In this document: positions 3,546 through 6,276 of the stretch, piece by piece
Position numbering within the stretch: the first letter of the stretch is position 1
How the letters are laid out: each line of letters opens with the position of its first letter
From: Candidatus Sulfurimonas marisnigri
GTDB taxonomy: Bacteria > Campylobacterota > Campylobacteria > Campylobacterales > Sulfurimonadaceae
Length of the DNA: 64,000 nucleotides
NCBI RefSeq assembly: GCF_015265475.1
Contig: NZ_CP054493.1
Span: 1,860,001-1,924,000 of the forward strand
Direction: 5' to 3'
Notes under the pieces: generated by a model
The model's input: the letters and a program-made list of their open reading frames with translations, nothing else
Database searches by the model: none
What the model was told of the DNA's origin: nothing
Made by a program: the position numbers and the translations under genes

Positions 3546-3611
3546 AATACTGTTCCTTAATTTTGTTTAATATTTAATCGCAGAGATTATATCAAATTAA
3601 AGCAATTACAA

Positions 3612-3617
3612 TATAAT
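3612..3617 (+). promoter_or_regulatory. Candidate -10 box for glnD
   Basis: A consensus TATAAT sits 149 bases before the glnD start codon. No clear -35 box is seen at the right distance, as is common in Campylobacterota. Transcription from here would start near 3624 and give a leader of about 140 bases that contains all the inverted repeats described below. Confidence 0.4.
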
Positions 3618-3631
3618 AGTAAAAAAATAAA

Positions 3632-3647
3632 ATTGCACTAGTGCAAT
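3632..3647. promoter_or_regulatory. Perfect 16-base palindrome upstream of glnD
   Basis: ATTGCACTAGTGCAAT is perfectly self-complementary with eight-base half sites. It falls about 8 to 24 bases after the inferred glnD start point and 86 bases before the lsrG start codon on the other strand. It could be an operator for a dimeric regulator acting on either gene, or a short hairpin in the glnD leader. Confidence 0.45.
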
Positions 3648-3682
3648 GGGCTTTCTGCCGAAGAAAACCAAATGTTAATGCA

Positions 3683-3706
3683 GACAAAGGAATTACTTCC
3701 TTTGTC
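3683..3706 (+). promoter_or_regulatory. Perfect hairpin in the glnD leader
   Basis: The ten-base arms GACAAAGGAA (3683-3692) and TTCCTTTGTC (3697-3706) are exact reverse complements around the four-base loop TTAC. No T-run follows, so this is not an ordinary terminator. It stands just before the switching hairpins at 3716-3758 and is probably part of the same structured leader. Confidence 0.55.
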
Positions 3707-3715
3707 GTAACAATA

Positions 3716-3758
3716 AAAATGAGGGGCTCCCTTCATTTTGTGAAACAAAATTAAGGGA
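3716..3758 (+). promoter_or_regulatory. Mutually exclusive hairpins controlling the glnD ribosome binding site
   Basis: Three segments can pair in two ways. Segment A, AAAATGAGGG (3716-3725), pairs with B, CCCTTCATTTT (3729-3739), with one bulged base. The segment TCCCTTCATTTTGT (3728-3741) can instead pair with C, ACAAAATTAAGGGA (3745-3758), around a GAA loop with 13 of 14 bases matched. Segment C contains AAGGGA, the ribosome binding site seven bases before the TTG start of glnD. The B:C form would hide that site and the A:B form would free it. This is the layout of a translational riboswitch or protein-responsive leader; the signal is unknown. Confidence 0.55.
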
Positions 3759-3765
3759 TATCACT

Positions 3766-6276
3766 TTGGACATAGTGCTACAGATTGAAGATATTATAGA
3801 AAAAAATGGCAGTGATTTTGAGCTTTCAAAACTTTTTAAAGCCTATATAAATGAGTATAAAACATCTCTGCCTGAACTGTTTGAAAAAACTCAAGGTAAA
3901 GATTTTTTGGTTCGTCATACAAAAAAACTAGACTCAATCATCTCAATGATGTACAAAACTGTTTTAAGACGTGTTTTTGGAAACTACATACCTATGCGTA
4001 ACTCGATACCAATAGCCATAATAGCTCTTGGAAGTTACGGAAGAGAACAGTTGTGTATTCATAGCGATATTGACCTGCTTATAGTTTATGAAAAAGTTGA
4101 CGGATTTAACAGTCAACTCATAATAGAAAAACTTTTTTACCTAGCACTTGATTCTGGGCTAAAACTAGGTCATAGAGTTCACGAGATCAGTGATCTATTT
4201 GGAGCAAGCAACGAAGATATAACAATCAGAACATCACTTATGGAATCAAGATTTATTACAGGTTCTAACTTTGCTTGGCATACAGCAACAAAAGAACTAA
4301 ATAAAATCAGGCTTCACAACCAAAAAGAGTTTATACTTGCAAAGATTGAAGAGGCGCAAATAAGACGTAAAAAATATCCAAACTCTATGCAGCCAAATAT
4401 CAAAGAGAGTGTGGGTGGACTTCGTGATTCTAATCTTATTTTTTGGGTTGCTCAAACAATCTATGGAATAACCAGCTTAAAAGACTTAACCGGAGTTGTC
4501 TATTCAGAAGATGAGTACAGAGATTATAGAATTGCTCTAGAACTACTGTTTAGAGTAAGAAGTGCCTTACATCTTATTGCTGGAAAGCAGGAGGATAGGC
4601 TCCTATTGGAACATATTCCACAAGTGAGTCGTATGCTTGGATTTAATAATCAACAGAAAATGGCGACTAAAGTTCTCGAAGCGCAATGGCGAATCAGTAA
4701 CTTCACCCAAATCTTTGTTAAAAAAATGGTCCGTGTTTTCATCTCTGACATATCATATGTGAGAAAGTTTAGAAAAAACCGAATATGCAGGGGCATATAT
4801 GCACTTGATAACAGACTGTTCGCTTCATACAACTTAGAGATACAGCCCATAAACTCACTCTTAGAGATCTTAGTATCACTACCAGATAATTTCCACCACT
4901 TTGATGCCGGGTTTTTAAATCAATTAACTTATACAAAAATATCCCATCCACTGAATTTAAAGACCTACTCACTCTTAAAAGAGCTCTTAAAGAAACAGCA
5001 CATGTACTGCTTTTTAAAGCTATTTTATGATGCTGGAATACTTCACCATCTATTTTTAAACTTTAAAAAAGTTCTTCACATGCCACAGTTTGACGGATAC
5101 CATCAGTATCCCGTAGATATACACTCTATTAAATGCGTTCAAGCATTAGAGAGTATAAAAGAGCCGTTTATTCAGAGTCTCTATGATGAGTTTAATGATG
5201 ATGAAAAACTGCTTCTGAAAATAGTAACCCTTTTTCACGATACAGGCAAAGGTCGCAAGCAAGACCATAGTGAAGTTGGAGCGAAACTAATAGTCCCTTT
5301 TATGAAAAAACTAAAAATAAAAGATGAACTAATTGAGAGAGCAATAACATTAGTTAAACAACATGTGACTATGAGCAGTGTTGCTTTTAAACAAAATATT
5401 CACAATGAAAAAGTTCTATATAAATTTATGTCAAGTGTCAAAGATGTTAAAAATTTAAAACTTCTATATGTATTAACTTATGCAGATATAAATGGAGTTG
5501 GCGACGATGTATACAACAATTTCAGCTCTAAACTACTTCGTGACTTATATAACAGTGCTTTAGAAGTAGCACAAAATTTCGGAAGAATAACAGATGCGAC
5601 TAAAAGAATGAATATAGAAAAACGTGTGCAAAAAGTTCCAGAGTTTTTAGAGCTTCCAAAACCCCTACAAAAAAAACTTCTTCGTGTTGAGTCAAATCTT
5701 TTCTTTTTTAAGCACACTCCGTTAGACATAATTAAAATTGCAAAAAAAGCTAATAATACCAAAGAGTATGCATACTCAATACATACAAAATCATCTCTTA
5801 GTATAGAAATATATAGAAAAATACCACTGAACATTGGTTATCTCTTAGCAACTCTAAGTCATCTTGATGTTGCCTCTATGGAAATTTTCACACTCTTTGA
5901 CGGGGTTAAATATTTCAAAATTGAGTTTATTCATAACGTAAGCGGAAATGAAGCGATTGAACTAGAGGAAATAGTTAAAAATGCTTTTGACATGAGCCTA
6001 CATGTAGAGTTGAAAAATGTAAACATATCTAAAGATGAGATTAACATCGACTGTGAGCACTCCCTCACACATGCAGAACTCGCTGTCAACACACAAAATC
6101 AAAGAGGTCTGTTAGCATATATAATGGACTGTTTTGAACAGCTTCATATAAATATAGTAACAGCAAAAATTCACAGCACTAAGCATAGGGTTAGAGATAG
6201 CTTCTTAATGGAGAAACAAAACGTTATATGCAATAATGTCGAAAAAATTTATCAATTATTAACAAAAGGCAAGTAA
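3766..6276 (+). CDS. glnD: PII uridylyltransferase/uridylyl-removing enzyme
   Basis: GlnD senses glutamine and modifies or demodifies the PII protein, setting nitrogen assimilation. At 836 residues it is of normal size. The nucleotidyltransferase motif GSYGRE is at residues 89-94 with the catalytic DID at 101-103. An HD domain for deuridylylation has His491-Asp492 within FHDTGKGRKQDH. Two ACT-like regions form the C-terminal third, the last beginning near AELAVNTQNQRGLLAY. The start is TTG with AAGGGA seven bases before it, a site that lies inside a predicted switching hairpin. The stop codon is directly followed by the glmS ATG, so both nitrogen-flow enzymes are likely in one transcript. Confidence 0.95.
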   Translation: MDIVLQIEDIIEKNGSDFELSKLFKAYINEYKTSLPELFEKTQGKDFLVRHTKKLDSIISMMYKTVLRRVFGNYIPMRNSIPIAIIALGSYGREQLCIHSDIDLLIVYEKVDGFNSQLIIEKLFYLALDSGLKLGHRVHEISDLFGASNEDITIRTSLMESRFITGSNFAWHTATKELNKIRLHNQKEFILAKIEEAQIRRKKYPNSMQPNIKESVGGLRDSNLIFWVAQTIYGITSLKDLTGVVYSEDEYRDYRIALELLFRVRSALHLIAGKQEDRLLLEHIPQVSRMLGFNNQQKMATKVLEAQWRISNFTQIFVKKMVRVFISDISYVRKFRKNRICRGIYALDNRLFASYNLEIQPINSLLEILVSLPDNFHHFDAGFLNQLTYTKISHPLNLKTYSLLKELLKKQHMYCFLKLFYDAGILHHLFLNFKKVLHMPQFDGYHQYPVDIHSIKCVQALESIKEPFIQSLYDEFNDDEKLLLKIVTLFHDTGKGRKQDHSEVGAKLIVPFMKKLKIKDELIERAITLVKQHVTMSSVAFKQNIHNEKVLYKFMSSVKDVKNLKLLYVLTYADINGVGDDVYNNFSSKLLRDLYNSALEVAQNFGRITDATKRMNIEKRVQKVPEFLELPKPLQKKLLRVESNLFFFKHTPLDIIKIAKKANNTKEYAYSIHTKSSLSIEIYRKIPLNIGYLLATLSHLDVASMEIFTLFDGVKYFKIEFIHNVSGNEAIELEEIVKNAFDMSLHVELKNVNISKDEINIDCEHSLTHAELAVNTQNQRGLLAYIMDCFEQLHINIVTAKIHSTKHRVRDSFLMEKQNVICNNVEKIYQLLTKGK

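Follow-up and report, generated by a model that had tools for sequence, protein, structure and literature searches.

Short intergenic repeats of the MITE-like kind, such as BOX, RUP, Correia and ERIC, are about 100–200 bp long, non-coding and structured, are inserted in a lineage-specific manner and can sit in the leaders of genes. Translational riboswitches control access to the Shine-Dalgarno (SD) sequence by an anti-sequestor/sequestor geometry, and in Campylobacterota intervening sequences occur within rRNA genes. The leader of glnD in Candidatus Sulfurimonas marisnigri, contained in a window of 64,000 nucleotides (the whole stretch of DNA analysed; NZ_CP054493.1, positions 1,860,001 to 1,924,000), carries a copy of a dispersed structured repeat of the Campylobacterota, which extends from 3629 to about 3750 of the window and consists of a core of three hairpins (H1–H3) and a module of three segments (a, b and c). 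The repeat family resembles the MITE-like repeats in size, non-coding structure, lineage-specific insertion and leader location, but it is orientation-biased, its b arm is matched to the adjacent ribosome binding site, and neither terminal inverted repeats nor target-site duplications are clearly recognizable at the glnD, hypB and rplI junctions, the flanks of which are of low complexity. With translational riboswitches it shares, at the level of structure, the alternative pairing of b with a or with c, the latter holding the SD, whereas it shows neither a coherent regulon nor a hint of a ligand, gives no credible family match in Rfam at gathering and permissive thresholds, and has copies in antisense and within rRNA. 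REP/BIME elements with their RAYT-type (Y1) transposases likewise form dozens of short hairpins, placed in tandem or inverted to one another, and share a GTAG tetranucleotide, which in the repeat-family consensus lies just 5′ of H3; unlike these, the family has a three-hairpin core, an SD-linked 3′ module and a sense position before start codons, and its host genome here lacks a Y1 transposase (PF01797). The rRNA intervening sequences are matched by a head-to-head pair of units inside the 23S rRNA gene of one genome (L125, G012 C1:465504-465657), while most copies lie in the leaders of protein genes. For Sulfurimonas gotlandica the RepRanger paper (PMC12306157) provides counts, and the literature search returned no published description of the family.

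The original prediction for this locus, made from the letters of the window, was a leader of glnD in which mutually exclusive hairpins hide or free the ribosome binding site. A repeat search of the window recovers its three inverted repeats exactly, with arms at 3728-3741/3745-3758 (14 nt, 93% complementary, 3-nt loop), 3683-3692/3697-3706 (10 nt, 100% complementary) and 3716-3726/3729-3739 (11 nt, 91% complementary). The motif AAGGGA is separated from the TTG at 3766 by seven bases. Two extra hairpins further upstream, missed in that prediction, are part of the same element, so that the region is composed as follows.

3612..3617, plus strand: TATAAT, probably the -10 box of the promoter of glnD, which most congeners also have upstream of the gene; the position of the transcription start would follow from it.
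3629..3752, plus strand: copy of the repeat, with a net insertion of about 124 bp (empty sites in congeners; model R1).
3633..3646, plus strand: H1, palindromic hairpin TTGCACTAGTGCAA (covariation in 29 copies; model R2).
3649..3669, plus strand: H2, hairpin with the conserved loop region CTGCCGAAG (covariation; model R2).
3670..3682, plus strand: conserved unpaired linker, family consensus AGYGTTARCGTAG, diverged in the glnD copy (model R2).
3683..3706, plus strand: H3, the third hairpin of the original prediction (98.9% of cells paired).
3716..3725, plus strand: segment a, which would leave the SD free when paired with b (a:b column count not significant).
3728..3741, plus strand: segment b, able to pair with a or c (inverted repeats, within-copy matching, covariation).
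3745..3758, plus strand: segment c, which holds the glnD SD AAGGGA at 3753-3758 (covariation; resembles the native ribosome binding region of congeners).
3766..6276, plus strand: glnD with TTG start, aligned with TTG, ATG or GTG in 29 congeners.

Folding in silico confirms a structured leader: the region 3622-3790 (−45.8 kcal/mol, z −4.16) is more stable than all 200 dinucleotide shuffles, and the fold of the shorter segment 3660-3790 (−30.2 kcal/mol, z −2.65) is equalled by one of 200. Its recurrence in about a hundred further copies places the arrangement far beyond chance. With −14.9 kcal/mol for the SD-closed and −13.1 kcal/mol for the SD-open state, the latter being 1.8 kcal/mol higher, the glnD copy is predicted to be nearly bistable and to lean towards the closed form. 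Several other features of the leader were considered and discarded. The single terminator-like match is a 5-bp stem within a/b, and no U-run follows the b:c hairpin. A 12-codon open reading frame, read from the letters at 3672-3710 and running across H3, has a start base which is absent from other copies. Pairing of H1 with the glnD start in the fold of the whole leader is counted as chance, because the glnD coding bases involved also occur in relatives without the element. A search of the region for tRNA and tmRNA genes found none.

Comparison with congeneric glnD loci depicts a different picture from the one originally drawn. None of the 29 other Sulfurimonas glnD loci examined carries the repeat unit in its leader. 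In 25 of these 29 the -10 box is located 30–35 nt from the start codon, compared to 154 nt here (3612 to 3766), which corresponds to an insertion of about 124 bp. Judged by its absence from the sampled congeners, the insertion between promoter and ribosome binding site would be lineage-specific. In one relative (L021) a copy is found near glnD in the opposite orientation, ahead of a divergent gene. A lack of covariation of the pairing segments in related species, named beforehand as refuting the leader, thus applies at glnD in the sense that the relatives possess no leader of this kind; covariation is found instead among repeat copies at other genes. Likewise, the TTG start had been taken to fit tight translational control, yet most glnD genes of Sulfurimonas start with TTG (23 of 30 loci including the one in the window, with ATG in five and GTG in two), and it is therefore no sign of control by this leader.

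A plain BLAST search of the host genome with 3600-3800 yields nine further places, one of them 79% identical over 128 bases. Two models were employed, R1 for the full unit and R2 for its first 79 positions only. R1 finds 23 copies in the host genome at E≤0.02 in a single-genome search, 18 at E≤0.01 with the filters for large searches, and matches in 126 of 135 congeneric genomes. R2, and thus H1–H3 alone, is found in 58 of 63 genomes, with a maximum of 49 copies per genome; among sampled genomes of the phylum it is present in 50 of 298, and in 11 of 58 genera. The glnD copy itself scores 157 bits with R1 (over 3629-3768) and 97.9 bits with R2; it was a training sequence of both models, though the repeat had initially come to light in the BLAST search. 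Among named genomes, a pattern scan detects the element in Sulfurimonas, Sulfuricurvum and Sulfurospirillum and in single records named Sulfurovum and Nitratifractor, and the core pattern is also present in an IMG/VR contig from the viral collection (L363). Two copies in the host genome (L059, L060) are of a long form with the same additional segment of 44 nt between H2 and H3.

The core is supported by strong covariation. In 29 copies 95.7% of the cells in H1–H3 are paired, both sides have changed in 17 of 21 pairs and none of 500 shuffles is as good, compared to about 49% or less of paired cells for slid structures. Among the copies found by the model, loop CTGCCGAAG and linker AGYGTTARCGTAG are well kept; the cross-genus pattern scan is no independent proof of their conservation, because it required those letters. 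The glnD copy shows the same order of H1, H2, linker and H3 with covarying stems, and several copies per genome occur at non-homologous loci.

The competing pairing around the SD, as had been proposed for glnD, is a property of the 3′ module of the family. In b:c 92.7% of the cells are paired and covariation exceeds that of all 500 shuffles, while for a:b the column-wise test gives no significant covariation, which might be due to register shifts. The within-copy duplex energies of both b:c and a:b are better than all 5000 permutations each, a test which can be inflated by relatedness of the copies. At rplL (L420) the b arm carries five T opposite five A of the local c, and at dnaK (L398, L406) a longer b goes with a longer c, which also occurs in a relative that lacks the element (L405). 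Averaged over 97 copies, the SD is unpaired with a probability of 0.64, or 0.52 with the upstream part shuffled, compared to 0.06 for the glnD copy; according to these calculations the family would mostly favor a:b and an open SD, and the glnD copy would be unusual in leaning closed. Whether c is a part of the unit is answered differently by different loci. Internal units of tandem arrays (L195, L207) carry c without a start codon, and across b, c and GGGATA the glnD copy is identical over 31 bases to another place (L005) in the host genome. On the other hand, the same c-like sequence is present at hypB loci that lack the element, and c-like sequences also occur at rplL and dnaK loci lacking it, although some of these may be remnants of lost copies. 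Since c resembles the native ribosome binding site, the 3′ edge of the repeat at glnD is uncertain by about 10 nt. The same a/b/c module is also found before starts behind a second dispersed unit, CTTTAGTCGCC..GCGGCGCAAGCGGAG followed by a hairpin, in the host genome (L066, L068, L070, L065) and at dnaK loci (L384-L406).

As R2 was built without SD or start codon, the position of the copies before starts is not built into the search. In 116 of 154 distinct copies (about 75%) an SD and start codon follow within 110 nt downstream in sense, compared to 17 in antisense. The distance from H3 to the start in sense is mostly 53–64 nt; in a smaller group of 24–30 nt a and b are absent, and copies lacking both precede genes as well, e.g. 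clpX. Names were assigned from N-terminal sequences, and the genes preceded by copies are presumably hypA, hypB, luxS, clpX, nifU, dnaK, rplL, rplI and flgG. An unrelated palindromic repeat of the GGATCAAGTCCAGAATGAC type occupies the same spot just 5′ of the ribosome binding site at hypB (L372) and dnaK (L394, L396). Antisense copies apparently lie in the rpsL/rpsG and hisH/hisA intervals (flanks read by eye), and further copies of the repeat end right before 16S rRNA (L180-L182, L221) and upstream of a tRNA gene (L174, L219, L227; tRNA read by eye). Together with the pair in 23S rRNA, these copies imply that the core needs no SD. In Sulfurospirillum the link to the SD is not evident, with three sense and five antisense starts among 15 copies.

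The glnD leader thus probably holds a lineage-specific insertion of a Campylobacterota repeat that brings competing a:b and b:c pairing to the SD. In Sulfurimonas, where the core is usually joined by a, b and c, the transcript could form a:b first during RNA synthesis, and the default would therefore probably be an accessible SD; if a were unavailable or the RNA had re-equilibrated, b:c would form and translation would be lowered. A leader dedicated to glnD and responsive to nitrogen, as originally predicted, is exceedingly improbable and largely refuted by the comparative data, although its alternative pairing with the SD is real: the same element precedes unrelated genes and is missing from every one of the congeneric glnD leaders, which leaves both the specificity for glnD and the sensing of a nitrogen signal unsupported. 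What stands of the regulatory reading are the competing pairings around the SD. The wider possibility that the copies are dispersed translational switches of riboswitch or protein-responsive type, with H1–H3 as sensor, a/b/c as expression platform and a regulon gaining and losing members, would agree with the conserved unpaired loop and linker, the strong covariation, the platform with its mutually exclusive pairing and the tandem H1–H3 units ahead of one platform. It is nevertheless improbable, as the downstream genes are incoherent (hyp, luxS, clpX, nifU, dnaK, ribosomal, flagellar, rRNA, tRNA) and the sites include housekeeping genes unrelated to one another, leaders of rRNA and tRNA, antisense positions and an insertion in 23S rRNA, with no hint of a ligand and no conservation at glnD. 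Elements before the same gene are on average 77% identical across species, compared to 49% at four-fold sites; this figure may reflect family similarity, because elements before different genes are already 71% identical, and overall same-gene elements are hardly more alike. In favor of such switches, the element far exceeds four-fold sites in conservation at some genes, e.g. at a peptidyl-prolyl isomerase gene (0.89–0.91 compared to about 0.5), and the high locus-specific similarity there and at clpX and hypA suggests retention.

That the element is nothing but a selfish palindromic repeat of the MITE or REP kind, with no regulatory role, is unlikely but deserves to be taken seriously. Its position before starts would then result from tolerated insertions that keep the SD, and b:c would arise incidentally from the site or the mechanism of insertion. 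Empty sites, lineage-specific and, within a genome, near-identical copies, units in tandem or head to head, remnants in decay at rplL and the other palindromic repeats at the same hypB and dnaK spots are all consistent with this; the strong sense bias, the fixed distance to the start and the fact that b follows c copy by copy argue against it, and no transposase is tied to the element. Y1 was rejected as the driver, since the host genome lacks it and its association with copy number across 135 genomes is weak (7.9 versus 5.8 copies, p 0.04). A mobile, orientation-biased translational switch, which would insert by ribosome binding sites, carry an arm complementary to the SD region found there and let H1–H3 govern a bistable SD hairpin at genes like glnD, is a doubtful conjecture.

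With the inserted repeat as the preferred reading, translational tuning of glnD by this copy is plausible. Since its two states are nearly equal, translation of glnD is likely lowered or more variable relative to the sister species, an effect that would require no dedicated nitrogen signal. The repeat is real and not specific to glnD, and it represents a family with an SD-matched arm for which no earlier description was found. Leaders of this type are not to be read as gene-specific riboswitches in annotation. Present in a fixed geometry before starts and with an arm matched to each ribosome binding region, the copies of the family provide a ready series of natural experiments on the rewiring of translation by mobile repeats.
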